Source: Acidisoma silvae
GTDB taxonomy: Bacteria; Pseudomonadota; Alphaproteobacteria; Acetobacterales; Acetobacteraceae
Assembly: GCF_020618775.1 (NCBI RefSeq)
Contig: NZ_JAESVB010000021.1
Location: 1 to 50,195, forward strand
Direction: 5' to 3'
DNA length: 50,195 bases
The stretch's first letter is position 1; every line of letters starts with the position of its first letter. The notes below the pieces were generated by a model. The model saw nothing but the letters and a program-made list of their open reading frames with translations. It did not search any database and was not told the DNA's origin. The position numbers and the translations under genes are program-made. Positions 11,065 to 49,620 of this stretch are shown piece after piece.

Positions 11065-11946
11065 ATGACAAGCATCACCCAGGCGCCTGACGCTGATTTC
11101 CGTATAACTCCGATCATCGGATCGCTCGCAGCTGAAGTTCGGGGGGTTGATAGCCGGGGCAGCGTGAGGCCAGCACAGATTTTAGCCGTAAAGGCCGCGC
11201 TCAAAGAACATCTTGTTCTTGTCTTCAAGGATCAACAGCCTGAGGATGATGACTTCCTGCGCTTTACGTCTTATTTCGGCGCTGTGTTCACCCCGCCACG
11301 GAACAGCCCGGTTTTGGGCGGCAATGCCTCTGGACAAGTGCCTGATATCGTCCTGGTCTCAAATGTCGACGAAGGGGTACTCGGAAATCGTGAGCTGACC
11401 GCGCATTCCGATCATCACTGGACGCCCGTGCCGTCATCCGGATCCCTGCTCTACGCGATCGAGGTGTCAAAAAACGGCGGCGATACCACCTTCCACAATC
11501 TCGCCGCTGCCTATGATGCGCTGGATGATGGAACAAAGCGCGAGATCGACCAGCTTCAGCTCATTACCTATAACCCTTTCCTCCGCGCCACGAAGAAGCT
11601 GCCAGGCAGCTCCGCGCTTTACCGCACGCCGGATATCGAGCAATTGACGCCGTTCGAAGTTCACCCCCTGGTCAGAACGCACCCTGAATCAGGACGGCGA
11701 CTGATCTATCTCGGCGAGGCTACCGAGGTTGAGATTGTCAATTATGATCCCGCTGCCGGTGCCGCCCTCATTGCACGCCTGCGCGCCCATATTCTGGAGC
11801 CGCGCTTCCGCTACGCCCATCGCTGGACGCGAGGTGACATCGTCTATTGGGACAATCAGATCACACTGCACGGGCGCTCGGCCTTCGACCCGAACGAGCG
11901 TCGCGTCATGAAACGTATCAGCCTCGCCGGCAGTCGCCCGTTCTGA
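11065..11946 (+). CDS. TauD/TfdA-family Fe(II)/2-oxoglutarate dioxygenase
   Basis: A 293-residue cytosolic non-haem iron oxygenase. The iron-binding His-x-Asp is H114-S-D116 (AHSDHHW) and the distal His is H269 (ITLHGRSAFD), with an arginine about eleven residues later (R280) as expected for 2-oxoglutarate binding. Family members oxidise taurine, alkyl sulfonates, alkyl sulfates or phenoxyacetates next to the heteroatom, releasing sulfite, sulfate or a phenol. It is the first gene of a plus-strand operon, 7 bp before an NtaA/DszA-type monooxygenase and upstream of a Dpp-type importer, so it probably oxidises an imported organosulfur compound or its intermediate. Substrate unknown. Confidence 0.88.
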   Translation: MTSITQAPDADFRITPIIGSLAAEVRGVDSRGSVRPAQILAVKAALKEHLVLVFKDQQPEDDDFLRFTSYFGAVFTPPRNSPVLGGNASGQVPDIVLVSNVDEGVLGNRELTAHSDHHWTPVPSSGSLLYAIEVSKNGGDTTFHNLAAAYDALDDGTKREIDQLQLITYNPFLRATKKLPGSSALYRTPDIEQLTPFEVHPLVRTHPESGRRLIYLGEATEVEIVNYDPAAGAALIARLRAHILEPRFRYAHRWTRGDIVYWDNQITLHGRSAFDPNERRVMKRISLAGSRPF

Positions 11947-11953
11947 TATCGCT

Positions 11954-13327
11954 ATGTCGCGACGTCTTATTTTTCTCAGTGCGTTTGAGATGAATACCGT
12001 GGGCCATCTGGCCCACGGCCTGTGGCGGCATCCGCGGGACCAATCATCTCGCTACACGGATATCGACTACTGGATGGACCTCGCGCGTCTGCTGGAGCGC
12101 GGGCTATTTGACGCCGTTTTTCTGGCGGATGTAACCGGTACCTATGATGTCTATGGTGGCGGCCCGCACGCCGCCATCCGCCATGCGGTGCAGGTGCCGA
12201 TCAACGACCCTATGCTTTTGGTTCCTGCCATGGCGAGCGTTACGCAGCATCTGGGTTTTGGCGTAACGGTCGGGACCGGAGGAGAAGCACCCTATTTGTT
12301 CGCGCGCCGTATGTCGACGCTCGATCACCTCACCCGTGGGCGCATCGGTTGGAACATCGTCACCGGTTTCCTGGACCGCGCGGCGCGGGGCCGAGGCGAA
12401 AGCGGCCAGCCTGACCATGATGAGCGTTATGATGCGGCCGACGAATTCATGAACGTTGTCTACGGCCTTTGGGAAAGCAGCTGGGCGGATGACGCCGTGG
12501 TGCGGGATCGTGCGAGCGGCCTTTATGCCCAGCCCGAGAAGGTTCGGCCCGTGCGTCACGCCGGGCCGCGTTTCCCGCTGAATGCTATTCATCTCTCTGA
12601 ACCATCGCCGCAGCGCAGCCCACTACTGTTTCAGGCCGGAGCCTCCGCGCGCGGCCGGGTTTTCGCCGTCCGCCATGGCGAATGCATCTTCGTCCCCAAT
12701 CTGGGCCCATCCCGGACCGCCGCCATCGTCCGGGATATCCGCGCGCAGGCCGTGCAGGCGGGGCGCAGCCCGGACAGCCTGCGCCTTTTGACGGGTCTGC
12801 AAGTCATCGTCGCCCGCACGGAACGCGAAGCGCAGGACAAATACGCCGAATACCGCCGCTATGCCCTGCCGGAGGCCGGTCTCACGCAATTGGCCAGCGC
12901 CACCGGCATCGATTTCTCACGCTTCGAAGCCGATGAGGTCATTCCCGATTTCCGCAGCAATTCCATCCAATCCTCGGCCGAGGCCCTCGCGGCCGACGGG
13001 CAATGGACGGTGCGCAAACTGCTGGCGGACATGCCGCTCGGTGGCCGCTATGCGCCAATTGTCGGGTCACCGGGCCAGATCGCGGATGCCATGGCGTCTT
13101 GGGTTGAGGAGACCGGCATTGACGGCTTCAACCTCGCGCGCAGCGTCTCTCCCGAAAGCTTCGCCGATTTTATCGACCTCGTGGTCCCGGAACTGCAGAC
13201 GCGCGGTCTCTTCAAACACTCGTACGCACCCGGCACGCTGCGCGAAAAAATCTTCGGCTCTCCCAGACTGCCGCCGACCCATCCAGGTGCGGGGGATGCT
13301 CTCGCCAAGATGCCCTGGCCGACATGA
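11954..13327 (+). CDS. LLM-class FMN-dependent monooxygenase, NtaA/SnaA/DszA family
   Basis: A 457-residue luciferase-like TIM-barrel monooxygenase that uses reduced FMN supplied by a separate reductase. Family marks include the N-terminal FEMNTVGHLAHGLWRHP, the GLFDAVFLADV strand, LDHLTRGRIGWNIVTGF and the C-terminal ADFIDLVVPELQTRGL followed by GTLREKIFG. Members oxidise nitrilotriacetate, dimethyl sulfide, dibenzothiophene sulfone, pristinamycin and similar substrates. It starts 7 bp after the dioxygenase and its stop overlaps the start of the acyl-CoA dehydrogenase relative, a pairing that recalls DszA with DszC. Oxidation of a sulfone or sulfonate is the favoured guess; an N-linked substrate is not excluded. 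Confidence 0.9.
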   Translation: MSRRLIFLSAFEMNTVGHLAHGLWRHPRDQSSRYTDIDYWMDLARLLERGLFDAVFLADVTGTYDVYGGGPHAAIRHAVQVPINDPMLLVPAMASVTQHLGFGVTVGTGGEAPYLFARRMSTLDHLTRGRIGWNIVTGFLDRAARGRGESGQPDHDERYDAADEFMNVVYGLWESSWADDAVVRDRASGLYAQPEKVRPVRHAGPRFPLNAIHLSEPSPQRSPLLFQAGASARGRVFAVRHGECIFVPNLGPSRTAAIVRDIRAQAVQAGRSPDSLRLLTGLQVIVARTEREAQDKYAEYRRYALPEAGLTQLASATGIDFSRFEADEVIPDFRSNSIQSSAEALAADGQWTVRKLLADMPLGGRYAPIVGSPGQIADAMASWVEETGIDGFNLARSVSPESFADFIDLVVPELQTRGLFKHSYAPGTLREKIFGSPRLPPTHPGAGDALAKMPWPT

Positions 13328-14571
13328 CACGGATCAACGCATTGTCTGAAGCCCCTCCTGAGCCGCGCGTCGACGTCATTCGCACCGATGCGGAGGCGCT
13401 CATTGCCGCCCGTGCTCTCGCAGCTGAATTCGCGGCTGGCGCTGCAGTGCGTGACCGCCAGCGCCTGCTACCCATCGCGGAGATCGACCGCTTTTCCCAA
13501 AGTGGCCTTTGGGGCGCGATCGTGCCCCGGGCCTGGGGCGGAGCTGGCATTGCCATCGAAACCCTGGCCGAGGTCACCGCCATCATCGCGGAAGCAGACC
13601 CCTCGCTGGGGCAGATTCCGCAAAATCACTGGTGTCTCGTGGATGCCCTGCGTCTGGCCGGGACCGAGGAGCAGAAGCGCATCTTTTTCGCCGAGGTTCT
13701 GGCTGGGCGCCGCTTCGGCAATGCCGTCTCCGAATTCGGCACGCGCACCTTTCGCGATATCGGATCGCGCCTGACTCAGGATGGCGGCCTGCGGCTCAAC
13801 GCGCGCAAAGCCTATGCCACGGGCGCATTCTACGCGCATTGGATCCCAATCGCAGCGAAGGATGACCAGGGGCAGGCGGTCATGGTCTATGTGCCGAACG
13901 ATGCGCCGGGGCTCACGATAGTGGATGATTGGGACGGTTTCGGCCAGCGCACGACGGCCAGCGGCACGGTCCTTGCCGAGAATATCGCCGTGGAGCCCTG
14001 GCAGGTTCTGGCGCGGCACCGGCTGTTCCAGCCGCAGACGATTCACGCCGCCTATGCCCAGCTTCTGCATGCGGCGATCGATCTCGGGATCGCGCGTGCG
14101 GCCTTGGCCGATCTGGAAATCTGGCTCACCCATCATGTGCGGACCGTGCCGGAGGCAGCACATCTCGAAGCGGGCGAGGACCCTTTGACCCTCCACCGTG
14201 CCGGTTCCCTCGTTCTGCGCCTGCACGCTGCCGAAGCGCTCCTAACCCGCGCGGCACGCGCCCTGGAACAGGCGGACGGGACCGGCGAAGCGTCGGACCA
14301 TGCGCAGGCAACCGTCGCGGTGGCGGAAGCCAAGATCGCGACCACGGAACTGTCGCTTGATGCTAGCTCAACCCTGATCGAACTGGGTGGCACACAATCC
14401 ACCCGCCTGATCTACGGGCTTGACCGGCATTGGCGCAATGCGCGCACCCATACGGTGCATGACCCCGTGCGCTGGAAATTTCATACGATCGGCCATTTCT
14501 GGCTGCATGACCGCCTGCCCGCCCCACAATCCGCGCAACCTGCGCCAGCCGCCGCGCGGCCTCAGGAGTAA
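13324..14571 (+). CDS. Acyl-CoA dehydrogenase-fold flavoprotein, SfnB/DszC type
   Basis: A 415-residue protein of the acyl-CoA dehydrogenase fold. The N-terminal helical domain (IVPRAWGGAGIAIETLAEVTAIIAEAD), the central beta domain (NAVSEFGTRTFRDI) and the C-terminal bundle ending in GGTQSTRLIYGLDRHWRNARTHTVHDP are all present. That C-terminal RNARTHTxHDP phrase is typical of the monooxygenase branch (SfnB, DszC, TdsC) rather than true fatty acyl-CoA dehydrogenases. Such proteins use reduced flavin to S- or N-oxygenate substrates. Its start overlaps the LLM stop by ATGA and it precedes the Dpp-type importer. Confidence 0.88.
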   Translation: MTRINALSEAPPEPRVDVIRTDAEALIAARALAAEFAAGAAVRDRQRLLPIAEIDRFSQSGLWGAIVPRAWGGAGIAIETLAEVTAIIAEADPSLGQIPQNHWCLVDALRLAGTEEQKRIFFAEVLAGRRFGNAVSEFGTRTFRDIGSRLTQDGGLRLNARKAYATGAFYAHWIPIAAKDDQGQAVMVYVPNDAPGLTIVDDWDGFGQRTTASGTVLAENIAVEPWQVLARHRLFQPQTIHAAYAQLLHAAIDLGIARAALADLEIWLTHHVRTVPEAAHLEAGEDPLTLHRAGSLVLRLHAAEALLTRAARALEQADGTGEASDHAQATVAVAEAKIATTELSLDASSTLIELGGTQSTRLIYGLDRHWRNARTHTVHDPVRWKFHTIGHFWLHDRLPAPQSAQPAPAAARPQE

Positions 14572-14574
14572 CTT

Positions 14575-16176
14575 ATGCAACGACGCGATGTCCTGCTCGG
14601 CTCGGCGGCCGGAGCTGCCTCTGCTTTCCTGCCCCGCCTGCAAACCCGTGCGGAAGCGGCCTCACTCGATACCCTACGCGAACTGGCCGAGGCCGGCCCC
14701 AACAGCCGCGATCCGCATGGGGCGGGCGTTGCCTCGCCCTCGCTCGGCACCTTCACCAATATCTACGACCGGCTGATCAATTTCGGGCATACCGAGATCG
14801 CGCCCGGCATCTTCAAATACGACTATACGAAGTTCACCGGCGAACTTGCCGAAAGCTTCGAGGTGCTGGATGATGGCAAGCGCCTGCGCTTCCATCTGCG
14901 GCAGAGTGCGACGTTCCATGACGGCTCCCCAGTGACCGCCGCCGACGTCAAATGGTCCTTTGACCGTGGCGTCAGCCTGCCGGGCTCGAAATACCAACTC
15001 GCCACTGGATCGCTGACCGATCCGGCGCAGTTCGTCGTGGTCGACCCCGCGACATTCGAAATCCACCTGCCCAGGGGGGACCGGTATACGCTGCCGAACC
15101 TGGCGCTGACTTTCGCCTCGATCCTCAATTCCAAGCTGATCCAAAGCCACGCGACCGCCAGCGACCCCTGGGGCGCGGACTGGCTGCGGGACAATGAGGC
15201 GGGCGGCGGCGCCTATCGCATCACCAACTGGCAGGCGGGCCAGCGCGTCACCTATACGCGTTTCGACGACTGGAAGAGCGGCCCGGCCCCGGCGCTGCGC
15301 CAGATCTCCTTCGAAGTCGTGCCCACGGCAGAAAGCCGGGTGGCGGCGCTGGAGAAGGGCGATGCCGATATTGCGCTGCAACTTCCGCCACAGGACATCG
15401 CCCATATCGCGGCCGACCCGCATGTGCATGTGGTCTCAATACCTGTGACCAATACGTTCCGCTTCATCGCCTTTGATACCCAGACGGCCCCTTTCACGGA
15501 TGCGCGGGTGCGTCAGGCCATCGCCTATGCCTTGCCCTTCGAGGATATCCTCCAGGCCGCCGTCTATGGCCACGGCACGCCGCTCTTCGGGGCGAAATCC
15601 GCCCAGCCGAAAAATGCGGCCTTCCCGCAACCCTACCCCTACAATACCGAAATTGCCCGCGCTCGGTCCCTTCTCGCGGCGGCAGGCCATGGCCGGGGCT
15701 TCTCAACCACGCTCAGCTATAATGTCGCCGACAACGACACCGCCGAGCCGATCGCCATTCTGGTGCAGCAGGCGCTTGCCCCGCTTAACATCAATGTCCA
15801 GATCGAGAAGATCTCGGCGGCTGACTGGGCCACGCGCCTGACCGCCAAGACCGTGCCGTTCTTCATCGAATCCTCTTCCGCCTGGTTCAACGACCCGGAC
15901 TATTTCTTCCGGATCTTTTTCCAGGGAAACTGGCGCTGGAATTTCGGCTCCTTCAACAACCCCGATCTCGCCAAGCTGCTCACCGCCGCGCGGTGGGAAA
16001 CCGACCCCGCGAAGTATGACGCGCTGATGGAGAAGGCCGTTGGCATTGTCTTCCAGCAACTCCCCATTCTGCCGCTGTGGCAACCGACCTTCGAAGCAGG
16101 CTTCAAGCCTGGGCTCACGAACTTCATCTACTACATTCATGGTCAGGTCGATTATCGACCCTTACGATGGGCATGA
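14575..16176 (+). CDS. ABC importer substrate-binding protein, peptide/nickel family 5
   Basis: A 533-residue periplasmic binding protein of the DppA/OppA/NikA class. It begins with a twin-arginine style signal (MQRRDVLLGSAAGAASAF) ending near TRAEAAS, and has the family 5 features GELAESFEVLDDGKRLRFHLRQ and FHDGSPVTAADVKWSFDR, plus VRQAIAYALPFEDILQAAVYG. An AGGAG site precedes the ATG. Within operon A it delivers substrate to the two permeases and two ATPases that follow. Although the family mainly binds peptides, several members bind opines, glutathione or other small organic compounds; linkage to three oxygenases suggests a non-peptide, probably sulfur-containing ligand. Confidence 0.9.
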   Translation: MQRRDVLLGSAAGAASAFLPRLQTRAEAASLDTLRELAEAGPNSRDPHGAGVASPSLGTFTNIYDRLINFGHTEIAPGIFKYDYTKFTGELAESFEVLDDGKRLRFHLRQSATFHDGSPVTAADVKWSFDRGVSLPGSKYQLATGSLTDPAQFVVVDPATFEIHLPRGDRYTLPNLALTFASILNSKLIQSHATASDPWGADWLRDNEAGGGAYRITNWQAGQRVTYTRFDDWKSGPAPALRQISFEVVPTAESRVAALEKGDADIALQLPPQDIAHIAADPHVHVVSIPVTNTFRFIAFDTQTAPFTDARVRQAIAYALPFEDILQAAVYGHGTPLFGAKSAQPKNAAFPQPYPYNTEIARARSLLAAAGHGRGFSTTLSYNVADNDTAEPIAILVQQALAPLNINVQIEKISAADWATRLTAKTVPFFIESSSAWFNDPDYFFRIFFQGNWRWNFGSFNNPDLAKLLTAARWETDPAKYDALMEKAVGIVFQQLPILPLWQPTFEAGFKPGLTNFIYYIHGQVDYRPLRWA

Positions 16177-17198
16177 ATGCATCCTTGATTTCATTCGTTC
16201 TCCGACGAGTTCTGACCGTTTTGCCGGTGCTGGTCGGCGCAACGGTCTTCACCTTCGTCGTCATGCGGCTATTGCCCGCCGACCCTGCGGCCTTTCTGGC
16301 CTCGGGGCCCGGGATGGGCGCCGCCGATATCGCGGCGCTGCGCGCCAAGCTTGGGCTGGACCGCAGCCTGCCGGTGCAGTTCGGCCTGTATGCCTGGCAG
16401 TTGCTGCACGGCGATTTCGGGCATTCTTTCGTCACCGGCAATCCGGTGGCGCTGGACCTGCTGCAAAGGCTACCCGCGTCGCTGGAGCTTGCCTGCGGCG
16501 GCCTGCTGATCGCGGCGGTGATCGGCATGCCGCTAGGCATTGCGGCGGCACTTCGGCCCGGTAGTCTGTTCGATACAGCCTGCCGCGCCCTCGCGGTACT
16601 GGGCGGCGCGCTGCCCGGCTTCGTCATCGGCGTTTTCCTTATCTATCTCTGCTATTTCAAGCTGAGCTGGGCGCCGGAACCCACCGGGCAGATTGATGCC
16701 GCCTTGTCCGCCCCGCGCATTGTCACCGGCTTCCTGGTGATCGACAGCCTGCTCGCTGGCAACATGACGGCCTTCGCCTCGGCTCTCGGCCGGATGGTCC
16801 TGCCCAGCCTGACCATGGCGCTGTTCGCGCTTGCCCCCGTAATGCGAATGACCCGCGCCGCCATGGTAACGGCCTTGGCGAGCGATTATATCCGCTCGTC
16901 TCGTGCGCTCGGCCTGCCAAACCGGCTTGTACTGCGCTACGCGCTCGAAAACGCGGGCGCGCCGCTGATCACGATGTTCGGGCTCATCTTCTCCTACATG
17001 CTGGGCGCCAATGTCGTGGTAGAGAAAGTTTTCGCCTGGCCCGGAATCGGCGCCTATGCGCTGGATGGATTGCAGGCCGCAGACTACTCCGCCGTCCAAG
17101 GCTTCATCCTGGTCGTGGCCGCCGTCTTCGCGGCCGTCAATTTGCTCGTCGATCTGCTCTGCGGATGGGCTGACCCGCGCATCCCCCGTGCCGCATGA
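16173..17198 (+). CDS. ABC importer permease, DppB type
   Basis: A 341-residue inner-membrane permease. The start at 16173 is chosen because it overlaps the binding-protein stop as ATGA and gives the usual beginning (ISFVLRRVLTVLPVLVGATV); longer in-frame starts would overlap the upstream gene by about 100 bp. It has six hydrophobic helices and the DppB signature from YIRSSRALGLPNRLVLRYAL to ALDGLQAADYSAVQGFILV near the C-terminus. Pairs with the DppC-type protein encoded next to form the membrane channel. Confidence 0.9.
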   Translation: MNASLISFVLRRVLTVLPVLVGATVFTFVVMRLLPADPAAFLASGPGMGAADIAALRAKLGLDRSLPVQFGLYAWQLLHGDFGHSFVTGNPVALDLLQRLPASLELACGGLLIAAVIGMPLGIAAALRPGSLFDTACRALAVLGGALPGFVIGVFLIYLCYFKLSWAPEPTGQIDAALSAPRIVTGFLVIDSLLAGNMTAFASALGRMVLPSLTMALFALAPVMRMTRAAMVTALASDYIRSSRALGLPNRLVLRYALENAGAPLITMFGLIFSYMLGANVVVEKVFAWPGIGAYALDGLQAADYSAVQGFILVVAAVFAAVNLLVDLLCGWADPRIPRAA

Positions 17199-17995
17199 AA
17201 TACGGATCTTCCGCGCTTCTGCTGGCGCTCTTCCTCGCGCTGGCAATCGCTGGCCCCGCGGTCGCCCCCTATAATCCCCTTGCTTATGCGCTAGCGGACC
17301 GTTTGCAGCCGCCGTCCCTGCATCACTGGTTCGGCACCGATGCGCTCGGCCGAGACGTGTTCAGTCGCACGCTTGCCGCCGCACGAACCGATCTTCCGGC
17401 GGCGGCGGCCGCCGTCATCCTCTCGTCGCTGATTGGCGTTTCGGTGGGCGCCGCCTGCGGCTATCTCGGCGGCGCGATCGACCGTTGGGTCGGCCGCGTG
17501 GTGGATGTCATGATGGCCTTCCCGCTCTTCGTGGTGGCGGTGGCACTCGTCGCCGCCCTGGGCAATAGCCTTACGAATGTGGTCCTGGCCACGGCGGTGA
17601 TCAATCTGCCCTTCTATATCCGGCTGGTGCGCGCCGAGATCGCGGCACGGCGACAGCTGGGCTATGTGATGGCGGCGCGGCTGGCCGGGTGCGGGCATGG
17701 TTATATCATCGGCCGGGTACTGATCCCCAATATCGCCCCCATTATCGCCGTGCAGATTTCGCTCAACCTAGGCTGGGCGGTGCTGAATACCTCGGGGCTT
17801 TCCTTCATCGGCCTGGGCGTGCGGCCGCCGACGCCAGAATGGGGGGCGCTTGTTTCCGACGGCGCACAATATCTGCTGACCGGCCAATGGTGGGTCGCCC
17901 TCGGCCCCAGCCTCGTCCTCGTCCTCGCGGTTTTCGCCTTCACCCTGATCGGCGATACCGCGCATGACCTTTTCAGCCCGCGATCGGCCCGCTGA
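17195..17995 (+). CDS. ABC importer permease, DppC type
   Basis: A 266-residue inner-membrane permease that starts by ATGA overlap with the DppB-type gene. It shows LHHWFGTDALGRDVFSRTL after the first helix, a hallmark of DppC/OppC proteins, and the EAA-type loop around YVMAARLAGCGHGYIIGRVL followed by the conserved GLSFIGLGVRPPTPEWG. It forms the second half of the transmembrane channel of the operon A importer. The stop overlaps the start of the first ATPase gene by one base. Confidence 0.9.
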   Translation: MKYGSSALLLALFLALAIAGPAVAPYNPLAYALADRLQPPSLHHWFGTDALGRDVFSRTLAAARTDLPAAAAAVILSSLIGVSVGAACGYLGGAIDRWVGRVVDVMMAFPLFVVAVALVAALGNSLTNVVLATAVINLPFYIRLVRAEIAARRQLGYVMAARLAGCGHGYIIGRVLIPNIAPIIAVQISLNLGWAVLNTSGLSFIGLGVRPPTPEWGALVSDGAQYLLTGQWWVALGPSLVLVLAVFAFTLIGDTAHDLFSPRSAR

Positions 17996-18975
17996 TGCCT
18001 GTCCTTGCCCCGCTGCTGACCGTCCGGCGGCTGTCGCTCGCCTTCGCCCTGCCGCAGGGCGGACGCGCCTCCGTGCTGGACGGGCTGTCCCTGGATATCG
18101 CGCCGCAGGAGGCACTCGCCCTCGTTGGTGAATCCGGCTCCGGTAAATCCGTTTTCGCGCTTGCGCTGCTGCGCCTGCTCGACCGCCATGCGGAGATCAC
18201 GGATGGCGAAATCCGGATCGAGGGCGAGGATCTGCTGCATGCGAGCGACAAGCGCATGCAGGATCTGCGCGGAAAGACGCTCGCCATCATCTTTCAGAAC
18301 CCCGCCTCCTCGCTCAACCCCATCCGGCGCATCGGGCGGCAGATCGCCGATGTGCTGCTTGCCCATGGGGAGAGATCGGCCGATGCGGCAAGGCGCCGCG
18401 CGGTGCAGATGTTGGCGCGTGTGGGCATCCAGGATGCCGCGCGGCGGGCGAACGCCTATCCGTTCGAGCTGTCCGGCGGCATGAAGCAGCGTGTCATGAT
18501 CGCGCTGGCGCTCGCGGCCAGCCCACGTCTCCTCATCGCGGATGAAGCGACAACCGGCCTGGATGTAACGACCCAGGCCATGGTGATGGACCTGATCCAC
18601 GAACAGGCCCGAGCAAATAATATGGCAACGCTGTTGATCACTCATGACCTGGCCCTCGCCGCCGAACGCTGTGACCGTATCGCGGTGATCCATGCGGGGC
18701 AGCTGGTGGAAAGCGCGCCGGCCGCGCGCCTGCTTACCGCAGCCCGGCATCCCTATACGCGCGCCCTGCTGACCGCGACGCCGCATGCCGGGTCAACCCT
18801 CGCGAACCTTCGCGCCATCCCGGGTCAGGCACCTGACACGGCAGCTGCCGATTTGCCCGCTTGCCGCTACTACGCCCGCTGCGACCGTCGTACTGAACTC
18901 TGCAAGAGCCTGCCACCTATGCAAACCGCCAGCTCAAACGGCGCGCATGTCGTCGCCTGCCACCACCCGCTATGA
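17995..18975 (+). CDS. ABC importer ATPase, DppD type
   Basis: A 326-residue cytosolic ATPase. Walker A is GESGSGKS (about residues 42-49), the signature is LSGGMKQRVMIALAL, and Walker B with its partner is LLIADEATTGLDVTTQ. The C-terminal oligopeptide-type extension is present, with a cysteine-rich segment (CRYYARCDRRTELC) as in iron-sulfur-containing DppD/OppD proteins. Forms a heterodimer with the next gene product to drive import. Confidence 0.9.
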   Translation: MPVLAPLLTVRRLSLAFALPQGGRASVLDGLSLDIAPQEALALVGESGSGKSVFALALLRLLDRHAEITDGEIRIEGEDLLHASDKRMQDLRGKTLAIIFQNPASSLNPIRRIGRQIADVLLAHGERSADAARRRAVQMLARVGIQDAARRANAYPFELSGGMKQRVMIALALAASPRLLIADEATTGLDVTTQAMVMDLIHEQARANNMATLLITHDLALAAERCDRIAVIHAGQLVESAPAARLLTAARHPYTRALLTATPHAGSTLANLRAIPGQAPDTAAADLPACRYYARCDRRTELCKSLPPMQTASSNGAHVVACHHPL

Positions 18976-30201: not shown

Positions 30202-30210
30202 AGGAAGATC

Positions 30211-39831: not shown

Positions 39832-40005
39832 GGCGACGATCCTCCTTCGCATGAGCTCAATCATATTAAACTATTTAACATCGTTTTATTAAATAATATT
39901 CCTCAATAAATACTATTGTGACTCGTTTGTCCAATTTATATAGTCATCTCATAACGATTTTTAGGCGGACATTTCGTCGGCCGCGCATGAGGACAACTCA
40001 CCAGA
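39832..40005. promoter_or_regulatory. AT-rich divergent promoter region of divergon D
   Basis: The 174 bp between the SsuD/SfnG-type gene (minus) and the binding-protein gene (plus) contain a strongly AT-rich core from about 39865 to 39955, including TTAAACTATTTAA, a 5-bp inverted repeat with a 3-base centre. Two outward promoters must lie here. A shared regulator site is expected but was not identified. Confidence 0.5.
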
Positions 40006-41710: not shown

Positions 41711-41742
41711 AGCGACGAATCCTAGAGGTGATTGGACAATAG

Positions 41743-43104
41743 ATGGCCCAAAGCAAAAGGCAGATAAAGCTGGGAGCCTTTCTTCATGAAACCGGCCACC
41801 ACGTCGCCGCCTGGCGGCTTCCCGAAGCGCAGGCCGATGGCGGCGCTAACTTTGCCCATTACGTCGAACTTGCGCGTATCGCCGAGCGTGGCCGGTTCGA
41901 CATGTTGTTCCTCGCTGACAGTGTCGGTATCTGGCACGGGCATGAGGAGGCCCTAAACCGCACCGCCCGCGTAGCGCATTTCGAGCCACTGACCCTGCTC
42001 TCAGCACTGGCTGCCGTCACCAGTCATATTGGCTTCGTGGCAACCGCCACAACGACCTATAACGAGCCTTATCATGTCGCGCGCAAATTTGCCTCCCTCG
42101 ATCTCATAAGCGGCGGGCGCGCGGGTTGGAATCTTGTCACCTCCTCCAACGCTCAAGAGGCATTCAACTTCAGTCGCGACGCGCATCTCGCGCATGCCGA
42201 TCGCTACGTGCGGGCCCGTGAATTCGCCCGCGTTGTGCAGGGCCTCTGGGACAGTTGGGATGATGATGCCTTTGTTCGGGATAAAGAGAGCGGCATTTTC
42301 TTCAAGTCTGAGGGGCTGCATGTCCTGAACCATGTTGGACCAGCCTTTCAAGTGCGCGGCCCGCTCAACGTACCGCGCTCACCCCAAGGGCAGCCGGTGC
42401 TGGTACAGGCTGGGTCTTCTGAGGCTGGCCGCGGTCTTGCCGCAGCTACCGCCGAGGCTATCTTCACTGCTCATCAAACCTTGGCCGAGGCGCAGGCCTT
42501 CTACAGCGACGTCAAAGCAAAGGCGGTTGCGAACGGCCGACATCCGGATGACGTTAAGATCATGCCGGGCATATTTCCAGTCATCGGGGAAACGAAGCTA
42601 GAGGCCGAGGAAAAATTTGAACGCCTTCAGGATCTGGTCCATCCCGATGTTGGCTTGTCTCTGCTATCCTCCATGATCGGCCTTGATTTGCGCGGCCAGG
42701 ACGTTGATGGGCCGTTGCCGCCGATCCCAGAAAGCGAAACCGGCAAAAGCCGCGCGCGGCTGTTGTCGGACCTTGCCGAGCGCGAATCCCTGTCTATTCG
42801 TCAGCTTTACCAGCACATCGCGGGTGCTCGCGGCCACAAGCAGATTGTGGGAACACCGGCGGAAATCGCGGATCACCTCGAGGAATGGTTCATCCAGGGT
42901 GCAGCAGACGGGTTCAATGTTATGCCGCCCCATCTCCCGGGTGGGCTAGTAGAATTCGTTGATCTGGTCATTCCCGAATTGCAGCGGCGAGGTCTTTTTC
43001 GCCGCGAATATGAAGGTAAGACCTTGCGCGAAAATCTTGGTCTGAGCAGGCCTGAGAACCGCTTTGCTGATGGAACGCATACACGGGCAAGCGCCGCGGA
43101 CTAA
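41743..43104 (+). CDS. LLM-class FMN-dependent monooxygenase, NtaA/SnaA/DszA family
   Basis: A 453-residue flavin monooxygenase. Segments: KLGAFLHETGHHVAAWRLPE, GRFDMLFLADSVG, FASLDLISGGRAGWNLVTSSN, GPLNVPRSPQGQPVLVQAG and C-terminal RRGLFRREYEGKTLRENLGL. It resembles the operon D-left enzyme at 33.8 kb, with nearly the same C-terminus, so the two may be paralogues acting on related substrates. Last gene of operon D-right; convergent with operon E. Confidence 0.9.
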   Translation: MAQSKRQIKLGAFLHETGHHVAAWRLPEAQADGGANFAHYVELARIAERGRFDMLFLADSVGIWHGHEEALNRTARVAHFEPLTLLSALAAVTSHIGFVATATTTYNEPYHVARKFASLDLISGGRAGWNLVTSSNAQEAFNFSRDAHLAHADRYVRAREFARVVQGLWDSWDDDAFVRDKESGIFFKSEGLHVLNHVGPAFQVRGPLNVPRSPQGQPVLVQAGSSEAGRGLAAATAEAIFTAHQTLAEAQAFYSDVKAKAVANGRHPDDVKIMPGIFPVIGETKLEAEEKFERLQDLVHPDVGLSLLSSMIGLDLRGQDVDGPLPPIPESETGKSRARLLSDLAERESLSIRQLYQHIAGARGHKQIVGTPAEIADHLEEWFIQGAADGFNVMPPHLPGGLVEFVDLVIPELQRRGLFRREYEGKTLRENLGLSRPENRFADGTHTRASAAD

Positions 43105-43151
43105 ACCGTCTCTCCTTCACTTGACTGCACCGTGTCCGCATTCGCGATGCC

Positions 43152-43319: not shown

Positions 43320-44710
43320 TCATTCAGCCGCGGTGGCGGAAGGCTCTGCCCAAGGACGCAATAGGCGGGCGGCATGACGGTCCGGCAGATGTGGGCCTTG
43401 GCGGAACAGCTTTTCGCGGAGCGTGCCGTCCGCATATTGCGTTTGCATGAGACCGCGCTTTTGCAGCACCGGCACCACGTGGTCCACGAATTCCCCCCAC
43501 CAGCCGAGCGTTGTTACCGGCACGACATTGAAGCCAGCGACACCGGCTGCAGCCCAACGCTCAACCTCGTCGGCGATCTGCTCTGGCGTGCCGGCAAAGC
43601 GAGCTGAGACGGTTTTGCGAAGGACATCTGCAAAGGTGACTGCGCCATCTGGCGCCGCGTCGATAAAGGCGCGCACATTGCCACGGGTGCCGTTCTTTTC
43701 GCGCAGGTCTTGCAGGGGGTCTCCGGGTCGATTTTCGTCAGGTCCACCCCAATGCCGCCGCTCCAAAAAGCCGCCAGGGCGTCCAGGCTGAAAGCCTCCT
43801 GGATTTCACGGTGTCGCGCACGGGCTTCCGCTTCGGTACTCCCTATGACGGGCGAGAGCATAACGATCGCACGGATATCATTGGCGTACCGACCGAAAGC
43901 CGCTGTGCGCCGTCTGAGATCGGCAATATCAGCCTTTGCACTTTCCGGGGTCTGGGAAGGCAAAAAGGTCACCTCCGCATGGCGAGCAGCGAACTGCCGA
44001 CCAGCCTCGGACGCGCCCGCTTGAAACAGAACCGGTGTTCGCTGCGGGGATGTCTGCACGATGTGTGGACCGTCGACTTGGTAACGGGCGCCGCGGTGGT
44101 TGATCGCATGGAGCCGCTCCGGGTCGACATAGATTCCGCGAACAGGATCCCGCACCAGCACCTCGTCTTCCCAGCTCGCTTCCCAGAGCTTGTAGACAAC
44201 GTCGATATATTCCTCAGCCCAAACATAGCGGTCATCATGCTGGGGGAGGCTTTTCAGCCCATAGTTGCGAGCTGCATTATCCAAATAGGACGTGACAATA
44301 TTCCAGGCAACGCGCCCGTCCGTCAGATGATCCAGGGTTGAGATTTTGCGCGCAAAACTGAACGGATGTTCCTGGATTACCGAACTTGTCACAGCGAAGC
44401 CGATGTTTTTCGTGGCCGCGGCCAAAGCTGAGACCAGCACGGCCGGGTCATGCGACGGAAACTGCATGCCGGTGCGCACGGCCTGCTGCCAAGCACCCGG
44501 TGAAGTCTCATAAATCCCGGCGACGTCGGCCAGGAAAACGACGTCGAAACACCCACGTTCTGCCGTTTGGGCAAGGTCAATCCATGGCTGGAGCTTATGA
44601 AAATTCGTCTGGTGCTGGCCGAGAGCGTGCCGCCACAGCCCATCGCTGTGGTGGTTCGGCGTAACATGGGCGAATGCGTTGTAGATCAGCGGCCGATTGA
44701 TGCCACTCAT
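43320..44710 (-). pseudogene. NtaA/DszA-family LLM monooxygenase interrupted by one frameshift
   Basis: The full family profile is present over 463 codons if one base is added. Frame one (from 44710) runs through FNHxxD-like start MSGINRPLIYNAFAHVTPNH, GCFDVVFLADVAG, ISTLDHLTDGRVAWNIVTSY and ends its similarity at VDLTKIDPETP. From there the adjacent frame continues with LQDLREKNGTRGNVRAFIDA, FAGTPEQIADEVERWAAAGV and GTLREKLFR to 43320. The break is at a run of five G (43724-43728, five C on the coding strand), where six would restore the frame. It may be a real inactivating deletion, a sequencing error in a homopolymer, or phase variation. Last gene of operon E; its start overlaps the binding-protein stop. 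Confidence 0.85.
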
Positions 44711-45930
44711 TTGCCGGTCGCTTCCTTAATCTGCTCAGGCGTCCAAGCCGTGATCGGCGTTTTCTGCCAAGCGCTGAAGGGCGTGGGATTGTCGACGACT
44801 TCATGCCCATCCTGCACATGTCCGGCGAAGGCCCAGATATTTTCCTGGCGCGGCATCCCGGCAACAGGTGCGATGGCCGTGAAATTGATCGGGTGCAGCG
44901 CGTCAGTCTCGAAGTTCTGGTCCTTGCTGACATAGTCACTGAAAGAGGCGACCGTCACCTCTGGCAAGTTTCGAGCAATCTGGGCAAAAGTCCAAACAGC
45001 AAGCCAGTCTGTGGTTGTCGTGCCGTCGGTCGGACCTTTTACGTTGTGGTTCGGGTCGTATTTGGCAAGCTCACGCTCATACTCAGCCCAGGTTGGAAAC
45101 TGTTTGGCATCTTCGCCCTTTTCCAATGCCAGCGAATTTGGGAAGGGTGCAGTGCTCAATGCAGCAATGGTCGCGTCTTCAATAACATTGTTGCTGCTGA
45201 CAAAGGGAATCGTAATTCCTTGCTGGGCAGCAGCCTGCACAAGTAATGTCTGCTGCTCGGGGGGATATAGCATTCCGCCCCAGACATCAGGGTGATATTC
45301 CTTGATCTTGGCAATATACGGCGAAAAATCCGTCGTTGAGGGCGGCACTTCGACGATCTTCACATCCGTCACGCCAGCCTGCTTATAACCGAATAACGCT
45401 GTCGTTTGGTAGGTTACATTCCCAAGCATTGAGACATATACGGCACTTTTGGCATGAAAACGCAGTGCACCAAGATAAGTGCCTTGCGCTGCACCTGCGC
45501 CGTTCAGCGCCGTGATGAAGGACAGCGGATTGCGCACATCGGACGGATCGCTGCCCATCGGAAACCAAGCAGCAATGCCTTTCGCCTTCATTATCTTGGC
45601 GATGCCATTGGCGCTGCTACCGCCGATATAGGTGATAGCACCCTCATCGGCCAAACGGCGCGCGCAGGACAGGCTGGCTGCGGGCTGCCCTTTGGTGTCG
45701 CAGATTTCGACAACAAGCTTACGGCCGTGGATACCGCCCTGATCATTGATTGCATGAGCCGCGATTTCTGCCACCCGGCCGGGGTCAGTCACCGCGAAGG
45801 GGGAGCCGCTCTGTGCGATGATGAAGCCAAGCAGAATAGGCTTGGTATCGGCGGCCTCGGCCTTAACTGAGATGCCTACCAAAGTGCCACCGGCAACGGT
45901 ACAGAAAAGAAGGAATGATCTCAACGTCAT
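44707..45930 (-). CDS. Branched-chain-type ABC importer substrate-binding protein
   Basis: A 407-residue periplasmic protein. The ATG at 45930 is chosen because it begins a clean signal peptide (MTLRSFLLFCTVAGG, cleavage near KAEA) and has GGATGA before it; a longer frame overlaps the LivF gene upstream. Mature segments include ILLGFIIAQSGSPFAVTDPG and INDQGGIHGRKLVVEICDTKG with a cysteine pair (CDTKGQ and SLSCAR) as in LivK-type proteins. Third gene of operon E. The ligand is unknown; the flanking LLM gene suggests an organosulfur or related compound rather than an amino acid. Confidence 0.9.
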   Translation of the reverse strand: MTLRSFLLFCTVAGGTLVGISVKAEAADTKPILLGFIIAQSGSPFAVTDPGRVAEIAAHAINDQGGIHGRKLVVEICDTKGQPAASLSCARRLADEGAITYIGGSSANGIAKIMKAKGIAAWFPMGSDPSDVRNPLSFITALNGAGAAQGTYLGALRFHAKSAVYVSMLGNVTYQTTALFGYKQAGVTDVKIVEVPPSTTDFSPYIAKIKEYHPDVWGGMLYPPEQQTLLVQAAAQQGITIPFVSSNNVIEDATIAALSTAPFPNSLALEKGEDAKQFPTWAEYERELAKYDPNHNVKGPTDGTTTTDWLAVWTFAQIARNLPEVTVASFSDYVSKDQNFETDALHPINFTAIAPVAGMPRQENIWAFAGHVQDGHEVVDNPTPFSAWQKTPITAWTPEQIKEATGK

Positions 45931-45979
45931 ACTGTCATCCAAGAGGAAAAAGAGATGTCGGGTATATGCGGCAAAGCGG

Positions 45980-46681
45980 CTAAACATCGACCGGACGGCC
46001 GAGATAGATGGCCTCAATCTCATCGGAACGTTTGAGCATTTCGTCACGCCGCAAATGCAAGCGGACAGTTCCTTCGCCGATGATCGCGGCGTGGGTCGCG
46101 ATCCGTTCGGCTATATGGATGTGCTGCTCGACGGCCAGGACCGCTATGCCGTCGGCCTTGGCCTGCGTTGTGACTGCATCGACGACGCGGCGTGACATGG
46201 CGGGGCTGAGGCCAAAAGTCAGTTCGTCGAGGAGAACAATTCTTGGCCGGCGAATCAGAGCCCGGGCGACTGCTACCATCTGCTGCTCGCCGCCGCTGAG
46301 CTGTCCAGCTTTAACGCTAAGCCTACGTTGCAGCTCGGGGAAAATCTCAAGCAGAGCTTCGGGCTTCAAACCGGCAAGGGTCATATTTTCCGCAACGGTC
46401 AAAGACGCAAACAGGCTTCGTCCTTTAATAACGAGACCAGTGCCCGCACGCGCACGCTGATGTGGCGTGCCGCGCAGCGGCTTACCATGCAAAAGGATCG
46501 TGCCGGTCGCGTCCGGGATGAAGCCGGCAATGGACAGCAAGGTGGTGGATTTGCCGGCGCCATTGCGCCCCAGTAGAGCCAAGACTTCGCCAGCCTGGAC
46601 GTCAAGATTTACATCGTGCAGCACCTGGCGACGACCATATCCGGCCCGCAACCCGCGCACGGAAAGAGCTGCCCTGCTCAC
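45980..46681 (-). CDS. livF: Branched-chain-type ABC importer ATPase LivF
   Basis: A 233-residue cytosolic ATPase. Walker A is GRNGAGKST, the signature is LSGGEQQMVAVARAL and Walker B is IVLLDELTFGLSPAMSRR, in which the usual DEP is DEL (the catalytic Asp-Glu are kept). It overlaps the fused permease-ATPase gene by 4 bp and pairs with its LivG-like C-terminal domain. Confidence 0.9.
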   Translation of the reverse strand: MSRAALSVRGLRAGYGRRQVLHDVNLDVQAGEVLALLGRNGAGKSTTLLSIAGFIPDATGTILLHGKPLRGTPHQRARAGTGLVIKGRSLFASLTVAENMTLAGLKPEALLEIFPELQRRLSVKAGQLSGGEQQMVAVARALIRRPRIVLLDELTFGLSPAMSRRVVDAVTTQAKADGIAVLAVEQHIHIAERIATHAAIIGEGTVRLHLRRDEMLKRSDEIEAIYLGRPVDV

Positions 46682-49467
46682 GCGTCGATCTCCTCAAGCG
46701 CATCGCCCGGCTCGCTTTCCAGCGGTTCGCCCAGATAGGCGCGCAGCACGTCCGGATTGCGCAGCACATCGGCAGGACGGCCACGGGCGATAATACGTCC
46801 GGCATCCATCACGATGGCAGCATCACAGGTTTCCAGAATGACATCGATATTATGTTCGATTAGGAGAACGGCGATGCCGAGCTCACACGCGGCACGGCGG
46901 ATAACGGCGATGGCGTGCCGCCGCGCTTCAGGGCTCAATGCCGCAGCAGGCTCATCCAAGCAGAGCACAGCGGGCTTGGCGGCCAGAGCACGCGCCAATG
47001 TGACACGGGCGTGCCAGCCCAAGGAGAGCGTCTCGACAGTCGTTTCAAGCAGATCGGCGACTCCGGCAACTTCGGCCGCCGCCAGTACAGAAGGCTGGCG
47101 CCGCCGTCGTGCAAAGCCAAACGGGGCCAGCAGATAGGCTTTGAGATCCTTCGGCTCGGCCGCGGTCTCCAGATTTTCCCGGACGGTCAGATCTTCGAAC
47201 AGAAGGTGGTCTTGAAAGGTGCGGGTCAGGCCTCGCGCGACGCGCTCATGAGGAGGCAAGGCGGTAACATTCTGCCCTCGCACGCGGACTTCGCCCTGGC
47301 GAACCGGAATGAAGCCAGTGATGGCATCAACAAGGCTGCTTTTGCCTGCGCCATTGGCCCCTAGGATGCCGAGAACCATGCCCGGTTCGAGTGTGAAGCT
47401 GACGTCATCAACGACCGTGGTATCGCCGTACTGAACGCGAAGATTGCTGACGACAAGGGCCGCCAGATCCGCGTCCGAATCCCCGTTCCCATGGGCGATG
47501 GCCTGCAGATCACCACTCTGTCGAGGAATCACGGCACACGGGTCCACGGATGGCCAATGTAAGATGGCAGCGGCCGACGCAAGCACACGCGCCGGAATCA
47601 GATTGGCGACGCGCAGTATTTGGGCAACAACGCCATCTGGCTCGCTGATAAGCACGAAAACCATGTTGAGCGAGAGAACAAGCGCCAGCCAGTCATTGAA
47701 GGTGCCCCCGAAGGATAGCAACTGCGCTAACGCGCCGCCGGGTGCAAAGATGCCGGTAAGGATGCCGCCAAAGATGAAGCCAGCGCCGGACAGCACCGTC
47801 ATGCTGAGAATGGCAAGGCTGTCAGAGTAGGCAAACCCTTCACCGAAACGCTGGCCGCCCACCGTGCCACTTTGCAATGCCAGCAATGCGCCAGCTAGGC
47901 CGGCGAGCGCAGCCGATATGGCCAGCGCCGCGATCTTGGCCTGACGAACAGAGATCCCGCTCGCCGCCGCGGCGCGCTCGTTTGAACGGGTGGCCAGGAT
48001 TCGCCGGCCGGCGCGGCTACGGCGAAGTGCAGCGACCGCGAGAGCCGCAGCAATTGCGACGATCCAGGTGAGCAAGGCGAAGCGGCGGGGATAAAGTGCA
48101 TTGTCGAAGGACACGCCGACAACAGTCATGCTGCTGATGGTCCAGCCCTGCACGCCATTGATGAAGAAATCAGACGTGAAAACCCAGGTCTCGATGATCG
48201 CGGCGAGCGCCAGCGTAGCGATGGTGACGCCCAGACCTCGCAACCGGGCAGCCCCATGCCCGATGGCCAGCCCGGCGGCTCCGGCCAGCACCATGCTACC
48301 GAGCAGCGTAAGCAGCAGCGAAGCGCCATGCTGGCTGAGCCAAGCCGCGAAAAGGACGGAGGCACCGGCGAGGCCAAGCGGCAGCAGGCTGACTTGCCCG
48401 GCATAGCCGGCCGTAACGACGACGGAGAGGCCGACAACGGCAAAGATCGCGGTCAGCGCCAGCGTATCCGACCAGAAATCCGGGAGGCTATAGATGGCGA
48501 TGGCGACAAGGGCCACGCCGAGAACGAGGCCCGCGAGGCTGACCCGACCGGAGCCAACGCGGAACAGGCGAGGTGCATCAATTGTGCCGCGGCCAGGAAG
48601 GTTGCGGCCACTGAGGATGAGTGCCAGAATCGTCACTATAAAAGGAATTGATTTTGCAAGTCCGCTTTCGACCGAGAGGCCGATGCCGACGGATTGCGCA
48701 ATGCCGGCGGCGAGACCAATCAGCAGGGCAACCCAGAATCGCCGAAATCCAGCGATGAGGGCCGCACCCAAAGCTGGAATAACAAGGCTGTCGAGGCCGC
48801 CCGGACTCAGGGCGGTGATGGGCAAGAGAAGGATACCCGCAAGAGCCGCCAAAACGCCGCTTATGCCCCAAGCGGCAGCGCCCCAGGGATGGGGAGAAAA
48901 GCCGAGCGCTTGCGCACCCATAGGACTGTCTTGCAAGGCGGTGGTGACATGGCCAAACTTGGTGCGCTCAAACAGAAACGTCAGCGCAGCCGTGAGTATG
49001 GTCGCTACAGCTACCAGCAGCAGCGATAGATACTGAACGTGGGTGCCGAAAAGCACGGTCCCGCCTGGCACCAGAAAGCTCGGAACAAATTCCTGTTGGT
49101 TGGTCCAAATGATCCGTACGATCGCTTGTAGCATCAACAGAAAGCCAAGGGTCACAAGCGTTTTTGTGGTGACGCTCGCGCCGACAAGTCTGCGTCCAAC
49201 GAAAGCGTAAAATGCAATGCTCAAGGCCAGGCCGGTGACGAGACCAAGAGCAATAGCTGGCCAAAGCCCAACGCCCGCATGGTCATGGAGCTTCCAAAAC
49301 GCATAAGTCGAAGCCATGCCGATGGCCGCCTGCGCGAAATTGACGACGCCCGTCCCGCGATAGACGGCAACTAGACCAAGAGCGACCAGAGCGTAGGCGC
49401 CTCCGCTGCTCAGTCCCAGCAGCGTATATTCAAGAACTTGCTGCAACGGACGGCGCCCTTTCGACAC
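46678..49467 (-). CDS. Triple fusion LivH-LivM-LivG of a branched-chain-type ABC importer
   Basis: A protein of about 929 residues that joins two permeases and an ATPase. The first 290 or so residues are LivH-like (LLGLSSGGAYALVALGLVAV, then GVVNFAQAAIGM), about 310-640 are LivM-like (AGYAGQVSLLPLGLAGASVL and LATRSNERAAAASGISVRQA), and after a soluble linker the LivG-like ATPase has GANGAGKSS, LSLGWHARVTLARAL and AVLCLDEPAAALSPEARR. The start is unclear: GTG at 49467 follows a GGGGG stretch; TTG at 49503 or 49446 are alternatives and there is no ATG. One chain thus supplies the entire channel and one of the two nucleotide-binding domains; LivF is encoded next. Confidence 0.9.
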   Translation of the reverse strand: MSKGRRPLQQVLEYTLLGLSSGGAYALVALGLVAVYRGTGVVNFAQAAIGMASTYAFWKLHDHAGVGLWPAIALGLVTGLALSIAFYAFVGRRLVGASVTTKTLVTLGFLLMLQAIVRIIWTNQQEFVPSFLVPGGTVLFGTHVQYLSLLLVAVATILTAALTFLFERTKFGHVTTALQDSPMGAQALGFSPHPWGAAAWGISGVLAALAGILLLPITALSPGGLDSLVIPALGAALIAGFRRFWVALLIGLAAGIAQSVGIGLSVESGLAKSIPFIVTILALILSGRNLPGRGTIDAPRLFRVGSGRVSLAGLVLGVALVAIAIYSLPDFWSDTLALTAIFAVVGLSVVVTAGYAGQVSLLPLGLAGASVLFAAWLSQHGASLLLTLLGSMVLAGAAGLAIGHGAARLRGLGVTIATLALAAIIETWVFTSDFFINGVQGWTISSMTVVGVSFDNALYPRRFALLTWIVAIAAALAVAALRRSRAGRRILATRSNERAAAASGISVRQAKIAALAISAALAGLAGALLALQSGTVGGQRFGEGFAYSDSLAILSMTVLSGAGFIFGGILTGIFAPGGALAQLLSFGGTFNDWLALVLSLNMVFVLISEPDGVVAQILRVANLIPARVLASAAAILHWPSVDPCAVIPRQSGDLQAIAHGNGDSDADLAALVVSNLRVQYGDTTVVDDVSFTLEPGMVLGILGANGAGKSSLVDAITGFIPVRQGEVRVRGQNVTALPPHERVARGLTRTFQDHLLFEDLTVRENLETAAEPKDLKAYLLAPFGFARRRRQPSVLAAAEVAGVADLLETTVETLSLGWHARVTLARALAAKPAVLCLDEPAAALSPEARRHAIAVIRRAACELGIAVLLIEHNIDVILETCDAAIVMDAGRIIARGRPADVLRNPDVLRAYLGEPLESEPGDALEEIDA

Positions 49468-49620
49468 GATGCCCCCATCGTTCGGGATCCTGGCATCAAA
49501 CAAACTCGTGATGATCGTTTATTTTATAGAGCACCATCATTGATCGTGTAAACCTCACAAATGCACTTTCGGGCTGCAAATATTCTCTAATCACGCCAAT
49601 TTGTGTCTTTAGGGATTGTG
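49468..49620 (-). promoter_or_regulatory. Upstream region of operon E
   Basis: Directly upstream of the fusion gene the sequence becomes AT-rich (about 49500-49560 on the minus strand includes CTATAAAATAAACG), a likely core promoter area. No inverted repeat or recognised activator site was found. Confidence 0.35.

Follow-up and report, generated by a model that had tools for sequence, protein, structure and literature searches.

Described organosulfur systems and the Acidisoma silvae island

In Escherichia coli, the operons tauABCD and ssuEADCB each pair an importer with an oxygenase, and their binding proteins and oxygenases are free of or poor in methionine (Met) and cysteine (Cys), while their permeases and ATPases are ordinary in this respect. 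A low content of both residues tends to mark proteins synthesised when sulfur is short (PMC2940859, citing Baudouin-Cornu 2001 and Mazel 1989; this and the other papers cited are drawn on in excerpt), and in Rhodococcus IGTS8 selected Met/Cys-poor enzymes (TauD, SfnG, MetY, Dsz) rise under sulfate starvation, with CysK and some other proteins that rise little or not at all being richer in Met and Cys (PMC8557817). Acinetobacter baylyi assimilates dimethyl sulfide (DMS) with two types of monooxygenase, luciferase-like (LLM; group C) and acyl-CoA-dehydrogenase-type (group D), which have a single flavin reductase, MsuE, in common (PMC13352529). The present analysis concerns one whole contig (C21, 50195 bases; hereafter the window) of the 5.44-Mb draft genome of Acidisoma silvae, and within it a 38-kb island (11065-49503) in which nearly all genes fall into an importer or an oxygenase class. 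Gene classes were assigned by Pfam and NCBIfam profile searches, and operon borders were read from strand and spacing. Taken together, the data make it very probable that this island serves to scavenge organosulfur compounds when sulfate is scarce.

The island shares with tau and ssu both the coupling of importer and oxygenase and the distribution of Met and Cys. However, it holds five importers, several oxygenases in most operons and importers of the Dpp and Liv types, with no SsuE-type reductase in the island and no recognised CysB. The Rhodococcus response is actinobacterial, and the excerpted report describes no such multi-importer island (PMC8557817). The A. baylyi system is a defined route from DMS to sulfite, as excerpted (PMC13352529), and no DMS activity is claimed here for the enzymes of the window. 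Similar islands do exist elsewhere, as set out below, and this one is ordinary in principle and unusual in size.

Five importers are encoded: a Dpp type (14575-19802, operon 1), a Liv type (21644-26200, operon 2), two of the Ssu/Tau type (27756-31329, operon 3, and 37028-38733, operon 4, the latter with its binding protein on the opposite, divergent strand at 40006-41052) and a second Liv type (44707-49503, operon 5). Both of the genome's TauD matches lie in the window, as do six of its 40 LLM matches. These six fall within 32.6 kb. When 40 genes were scattered at random along a line as long as the genome, such crowding arose in 0 of 5000 trials; in the genome itself the next-densest spans of that size hold four (contig C14) and three (contig C9). 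The density, which an earlier note made from the DNA letters had called unusual, is therefore real, though the genome is LLM-rich in general. The gene classes named in that note were recovered by Pfam, NCBIfam and, for the ferredoxin, its open reading frame (ORF). Its four oxygenases of TauD or SfnB/DszC type are all present; only one of the two with an acyl-CoA-dehydrogenase fold (13324-14571) exceeds the SfnB cut-off, the other (32324-33538) falling below it. The island also encodes CysK, an ATC-hydrolase homologue, a flavoprotein/ferredoxin pair and a CMD/peroxidase-like protein (41120-41710) absent from the note's list. Rfam at gathering thresholds gave no match in the window.

These data allow a model to be proposed in which each of operons 1-4 would take up its own kind of organic sulfur compound, the importer being of the Dpp type in one operon, of the Liv type in another and of the sulfonate type in the remaining two. 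Importer and oxygenase genes do stand together within single operons; that the oxygenases cleave C-S bonds is suggested by their families. The bond would be opened by reduced-flavin monooxygenases (LLM or acyl-CoA-dehydrogenase fold) or by a TauD-type dioxygenase to give sulfite, which could then pass through CysI, encoded elsewhere in the genome, and reach cysteine via CysK. Reduced flavin would come in trans from an NADPH-FMN reductase encoded beside SfnG on contig C17. The binding proteins and most oxygenases, presumably abundant and induced by sulfur limitation, would have lost Met and Cys and so cost little sulfur to make.

Methionine and cysteine content as a test of the sulfur reading

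Counts of Met plus Cys are given without the start Met, as number over length. In E. coli, which served as control, they are 0/320 for TauA, 1/283 for TauD, 0/191 for SsuE, 3/319 for SsuA and 4/381 for SsuD, with TauB, TauC, SsuB and SsuC at 1.9-2.4% and HemB at 5.9%. For island proteins of at least 200 amino acids (11-49.5 kb) the median is 1.77% (n=31, counting LLM6 with its out-of-frame tail as 11/398 rather than as 4/333 before the break), lower than the 2.88% of nine random stretches of the genome (n=126; p 2e-5) and the 3.08% of the surroundings of other LLMs (n=392; p 1e-6). As in E. coli, the low values within operons belong to the binding proteins and most oxygenases (TauD2, DppA, the acyl-CoA-dehydrogenase-fold protein, TauD1, SfnB, LivJ, SsuA1, LLM3 and LLM5). 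The importer ATPases and permeases lie between 1.4 and 4.7%, and neither CysK and the ATC-hydrolase homologue nor the flavoprotein and the ferredoxin are low.

As an independent test, 13 proteins of operons 1-4, all of them binding proteins or oxygenases, were compared with 64 BLAST paralogues from the same genome outside the island. Their median Met+Cys content is 0.54% against 2.67%, and their pooled content of 0.87% was equalled in 0 of 20000 draws. By residue, Cys (0.23x) and Met (0.35x) are the two lowest of the 20, followed by Lys at 0.67x. Addition of two operon-5 proteins, to make 15, gives a median of 0.69%, a pooled content of 0.98%, Cys and Met at 0.37x each, and again 0 of 20000 draws. 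The comparison is conservative, as the paralogue set itself holds members of other sulfur clusters. Within families of the genome, DppA has the lowest value among 19 SBP_bac_5 proteins and LivJ among 14 Peripla_BP_6 proteins, SsuA1 and SsuA2 rank 4th and 7th of 17 NMT1 proteins, and LLM3 and LLM5 are 3rd and 5th lowest among the 40 LLMs (one of the 40 from a partial model).

Several observations weigh against this interpretation. LLM1 (2.2%), LLM2 (1.8%), LLM4 (1.9%) and SsuA2 (1.7%) are mildly low and not clearly depleted, nor are the flavoprotein (2.7%), CysK (4.1%) or the ATC-hydrolase homologue (5.2%). LLM2, LLM4, LLM1 and LLM6 rank only about 10th, 12th, 15th and 21st of the 40 LLMs, and the six LLMs of the window differ from the remainder only at p 0.03. 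In addition, TauD1 (126 bits) and TauD2 (232 bits) both fall under the cut-off of 313 of the taurine dioxygenase model NF007104.

It might be argued that low Met and Cys are a by-product of DNA composition, of foreign origin or of the protein families themselves. Binding proteins are often Cys-poor, and the locus is patchy: of 299 family genomes, 11 (own included) have the flavoprotein at E<=1e-60, and of 4 other genomes of the genus none does; SfnB matches above 300 bits occur in 4 of 100 family genomes (own included), a distribution that suggests that the island was acquired. However, values in the same operons are normal for DppB, DppD, LivF, CysK and the flavoprotein, depletion persists in family-matched comparisons, orthologues in Variovorax are equally depleted, and the G+C content of the island (59-63%), at or below the 64% of the nine random stretches, would raise rather than lower Met. 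A by-product of this kind is thus highly improbable. Among the best flavoprotein matches Bradyrhizobium comes first and Acidisphaera sp. S103, also of the Acetobacteraceae, second at 68%, with several other genera at 68-70%. The left part of the contig (1-11000), at 54% G+C, looks compositionally foreign against both the island and the random stretches; it encodes a Sel1-repeat protein (7486-8313) with a long Gln/Glu-rich C-terminal tail.

A second alternative holds that the island is catabolic and provides nitrogen or carbon from compounds that lack sulfur (opines, peptides, or aminopolycarboxylates such as nitrilotriacetate). Four of the LLMs do fall into the NtaA/DmoA subfamily, named after a nitrilotriacetate enzyme, and the usual cargo of Dpp and Liv importers is peptides and amino acids. 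However, the LLMs of this genome, many with NtaA-like starts, span 0-6% Met+Cys, so that the subfamily name does not decide the matter. Further, side-chain nitrogen is not reduced in the island proteins (median 0.401 per residue versus 0.357) while Met and Cys are, and SfnB, CysK and TauD are present. A sulfur-free role is highly improbable.

Outside the window, 17 of 630 sampled genes of at least 200 amino acids were low at P<1e-3; LLM regions and binding proteins were over-represented among the genes sampled. Ten are of sulfur type: three SfnB, SfnG, an O-acetylhomoserine sulfhydrylase (0/447), two SsuA/TauA-like proteins, a partial NtaA/DmoA LLM with its adjoining binding protein, and, within the SfnB operon of contig C9, a protein with no NCBIfam match at 1e-25 that is probably a binding protein. 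The other seven comprise five members of secreted families (A2M, two Hint-domain proteins, a cellulase and a matrixin), one protein with a signal-like start and no Pfam match, and one amidase. The signature thus picks out sulfur-type genes with no input from family names, secreted proteins being its false positives. The sulfhydrylase-family protein, of 447 amino acids (C6:99702-101045), has no Cys and no Met after the start, comparable to the Met/Cys-poor MetY of Rhodococcus (PMC8557817), and a low-Met/Cys amidase (3/460) is encoded on contig C15.

The sulfur reading of operons 1-4 is upheld by this depletion, specific to Met and Cys and measured against paralogues of the same genome, by similar values in Variovorax and Azospirillum and by conserved neighbourhoods. 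It extends to the Dpp unit and the first Liv unit, for which the earlier note had offered it as inference.

Operons and their conserved neighbourhoods

Operon 1 lies on the plus strand in the order TauD1, LLM1, SfnB, DppA-B-C-D-F. TauD1 (11065..11946; PF02668; 1/293) is of the Fe(II)/2-oxoglutarate dioxygenase family, and in an alignment both it and TauD2 retain H99, D101, H255, R266 and R270 of E. coli TauD, the first four of which are invariant there and are taken by us to be the iron and 2-oxoglutarate residues. LLM1 (11954..13327; 10/457) is of the NtaA/DmoA type (TIGR03860, 522 bits, cut-off 280; at 279.7 this is passed by LLM1, LLM3, LLM5 and LLM6), SfnB (13324..14571; 2/415) reaches 527 bits against a TIGR04022 cut-off of 430.9, and the DppA-type binding protein (14575..16176; PF00496; 1/533) is followed by DppB, DppC, DppD and DppF (16167..19802; Pfam, NCBIfam). 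Directly upstream on the same strand, a TetR-type gene (10028..10708; PF13305) is the sole regulator that a Pfam scan of ORFs revealed at 10-50 kb, and it may regulate operon 1; TetR-LLM-SfnG-SfnB regions of Gordonia, as excerpted, likewise include a TetR gene (PMC9861168).

A search for conserved neighbourhoods, which the earlier note had proposed, found the Dpp operon again in Variovorax paradoxus VAI-C (CP063167), in the order TauD, LLM, SfnB, DppA, B, C, D, NADPH-dependent reductase, DppF, with proteins 52-67% identical to those of the window and with the same depletion (TauD 0/303, DppA 0/536). At 3-4 kb from it lies a Liv unit that shares 61-68% identity with operon 2 (LivJ 1/396), and further SfnB, SsuA-like and LLM genes and a CysB-family regulator occur within about 66 kb (about 121-189 kb of the sequence, with 154-175 kb outside the view). 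The Variovorax island differs in the reductase inside its Dpp operon, in the CysB-family regulator about 45 kb on, and in a KPN-type LLM accompanied by CMD and alkylhydroperoxidase genes. It also encodes a 517-residue amidase and a 510-residue binding protein, both with zero Cys and zero Met after the start (locus L227: 47107-48660 and 36234-37766). Azospirillum has a Liv unit with two LivJ at 3/376 and 2/395. The Tistrella operon, LLM-acyl-CoA-dehydrogenase-type-DppABCFD, speaks on the other side: it contains no TauD and is less depleted (DppA 5/539, LLM 6/476, acyl-CoA-dehydrogenase-type protein 8/393).

Operon 2 runs on the minus strand in the order LivJ, fused LivHM, LivG, LivF, LLM2, ATC-hydrolase homologue. 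Its binding protein LivJ (25040..26200; PF13458; 2/386) precedes fused LivHM, LivG and LivF (21644..25040; Pfam, NCBIfam) and LLM2 (20628..21647; 6/339), which belongs to the KPN_01858 family (TIGR04027, 502 bits, over the cut-off of 412.9); the ATC-hydrolase homologue (20076..20600; PF14196, 133 bits) is not depleted (9/174). Operons with LLMs of the same family in Sinorhizobium americanum and Agrobacterium vitis are more depleted in this enzyme (1/348 and 2/345). In contrast to the island, where LLM2 stands with a Liv importer and the ATC-hydrolase homologue, they carry a TIGR04028 binding protein and an Opp-type importer.

Operon 3, also on the minus strand, comprises in order an acyl-CoA-dehydrogenase-fold protein (32324..33538; PF08028; 1/404; 85.5 bits against the SfnB model TIGR04022, under its cut-off of 430.9), TauD2 (31362..32291; PF02668; 38% identical to E. 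coli TauD; 0/309), the binding protein SsuA1 (30211..31329; PF09084; 2/372), two SsuC-type permeases and SsuB1 (27756..30201; Pfam, NCBIfam) and CysK (26744..27766; TIGR01139, 391 bits, over the cut-off of 350.95), which is not depleted (14/340).

Operon 4 is divergent. Its minus-strand arm consists of LLM4, SsuC2, SsuB2, the flavoprotein, the ferredoxin and LLM3. LLM4 (38770..39735; 6/321 with this start) is nearest to SfnG and does not reach the cut-off of that model (TIGR04021, 235.7 bits against 382.95, scored on a longer ORF that begins at 39864). SsuB2 and SsuC2 (37028..38733; Pfam, NCBIfam), the flavoprotein (35460..37028; PF00890; 14/522, not depleted), the AprB-like ferredoxin partner (35134..35463; ORF translation, 109 amino acids with two cysteine clusters) and the NtaA/DmoA-type LLM3 (33764..35071; TIGR03860, 505 bits; 3/435) make up the rest. 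On the plus strand lie the binding protein SsuA2 (40006..41052; PF09084; 6/348), the CMD/peroxidase-related protein (41120..41710; TIGR01926, 140 bits, cut-off 82) and LLM5 of the NtaA/DmoA type (41743..43104; TIGR03860, 605 bits; 4/453).

Both by sequence and by fold the flavoprotein falls among succinate dehydrogenase, fumarate reductase and the phosphoadenylylsulfate (PAPS) and adenylylsulfate (APS) reductases. An identity as APS reductase was rejected on sequence and fold searches and on a score of 61 bits against the NF005331 AprA cut-off of 557; in Foldseek, the predicted structure gave FrdA and PAPS reductase at the top, with AprA 24th. Of the sulfur end enzymes named by the earlier note, CysK and the ATC-hydrolase homologue are present, and the "AprA" assignment is not borne out by its model score. 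Fumarate reductase or succinate dehydrogenase was rejected as well, as the HPTG motif, presumably at the dicarboxylate site of those enzymes, is missing (target FHPTG aligned to AYAIA; family consensus SNAYGI). Confidence in the AlphaFold model is no more than moderate (mean pLDDT 77, with segments 37-47, 177-188, 309-314 and 342-352 below 50), and therefore no active-site argument is built on it.

Neighbourhoods of the flavoprotein were examined at the best 80 of at least 569 loci, with homologues sought within up to 10 kb. A ferredoxin homologue follows within 500 bp at 79 of the 80 fetched loci. Homologues of an importer protein and of an oxygenase from the window occur together at 56 of the 80 and at none of nine random stretches, a control that weakens the comparison in being small and drawn from the A. 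silvae genome rather than from the genomes of the loci. At these loci the median Met+Cys is 0.00% for the TauD and SfnB homologues (n=9, 12 and 29), 0.90% for the oxygenases together (n=126), 0.96% for binding proteins (n=51), 1.56% for ATPases, 2.26% for permeases and 3.19% for the flavoprotein. Such clusters in Bradyrhizobium, Xanthobacter, Nostoc and Burkholderiales resemble the island in their TauD, SsuABC, SfnB-like and LLM homologues; however, gene order and importer sets vary, and only some include Dpp or Liv units. In many of the cyanobacterial loci (Nostoc and Anabaena) an SsuA-like gene (27-34% identity) comes after the pair. Among titles and abstract starts of the open-access literature, neither the pair nor such an island was found mentioned, no described role was found, and nothing was found on SfnB together with a luciferase-like monooxygenase and sulfur. 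In cyanobacteria as in Alpha- and Betaproteobacteria, the pair has oxygenases and importers of the sulfonate type as neighbours, and the flavoprotein is not sulfur-poor. It is conceivable, if somewhat doubtful, that the pair (35134-37028) performs a step in the aerobic assimilation of organosulfur compounds that has gone unrecognised, acting on the substrate of the importer or on released sulfinate or sulfite, and that the Dpp- and Liv-type units represent new classes of organosulfur importer.

Operon 5, on the minus strand, encodes a 941-residue LivH-LivM-LivG fusion with LivF2 (45980..49503; Pfam; fusion 13/941), the binding protein LivJ2 (44707..45987; PF13458) and LLM6 of the NtaA/DmoA type (43514..44710; TIGR03860, 400 bits over residues 12-341; 4/333 before the break). 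Here the earlier note's sulfur reading finds no support, and we see an even balance between its inclusion in the island and a scenario in which operons 1-4 alone scavenge sulfur and operon 5 is just a neighbouring uptake unit, either unrelated to them or in decay. In favor of the latter, and to the detriment of a five-operon island, LivJ2 is of middling Met+Cys content (9/426, 7th of 14 Peripla_BP_6 proteins), so that the binding protein of operon 5 lacks the signature, and its best other matches were 51 bits in 150 family genomes and 93 bits in a plasmid collection. In addition, the LLM6 frame is lost: its family match stops at profile position 324 of 422, and an apparent C-terminal part, judged by eye, lies in another frame at 43320-43766, which may reflect real decay or an assembly error. 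However, LLM6 before the break (1.2%) and the fused permease/ATPase (1.4%) are both lowish, and operon 5 adjoins operon 4. It is therefore assigned to the sulfur island only tentatively.

Reduced flavin, sulfite reduction and regulation elsewhere in the genome

LLM and acyl-CoA-dehydrogenase-type monooxygenases need reduced flavin. A search for PF01613 and PF03358 found 12 matches in the genome, none of them on the contig of the island. On contig C17, an NADPH-FMN reductase (PF03358) with no Met or Cys (0/190) lies directly before SfnG (614 bits; 1/373), with an SfnB (0/421) in the same cluster. Among the 11 of 12 reductase matches that were modelled, a weak FMN_red match (C3:141276; 1/203) and a Flavin_Reduct protein (C7:125548; 3/311) are also low. 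The monooxygenases of the DMS route in A. baylyi all depend on a single reductase in the excerpted account (PMC13352529), and a single reductase acting in trans is therefore plausible for the island as well, the Met/Cys-free C17 enzyme being its most likely supplier of reduced flavin. That enzyme belongs to a second sulfur cluster (C17:61796-69644) of reductase, SfnG, Liv-type parts and SfnB, with 54% G+C against 64% in the random stretches. A third (C9:103557-124718) holds two SfnB over the cut-off (0/410 and 1/402) with two LLMs between them, ABC-importer parts and several Met/Cys-poor probable binding proteins.

Downstream, an assimilatory sulfite reductase, CysI, is present (776 bits, cut-off 757) as the single NIR_SIR match of the genome. 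Regulation provides less encouragement for the sulfur reading. The best LysR match to a single CysB-family query, from Variovorax, reached 65 bits at 28% identity, which leaves no clear orthologue, and a dyad shared by at least five of 13 upstream regions, judged against 269 others, was not found in this small set by a coarse method under which one of 20 random sets had one. Common control of the operons is therefore unproven.

Genomes of soil bacteria may hold dozens of LLMs together with Dpp and Liv importers, the substrates of which cannot be read from family names. Met and Cys counts set against paralogues provide a means to rank the 40 LLMs and 50 binding proteins (19+14+17) of this genome by their likely role in sulfur starvation, and by this annotation-free test the sulfur interpretation is supported for four of the five operons. 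The analysis thereby ties to organosulfur uptake Dpp- and Liv-type importers that are usually annotated for peptides or amino acids, singles out one flavin reductase as a candidate, and brings to notice a conserved flavoprotein/ferredoxin pair.

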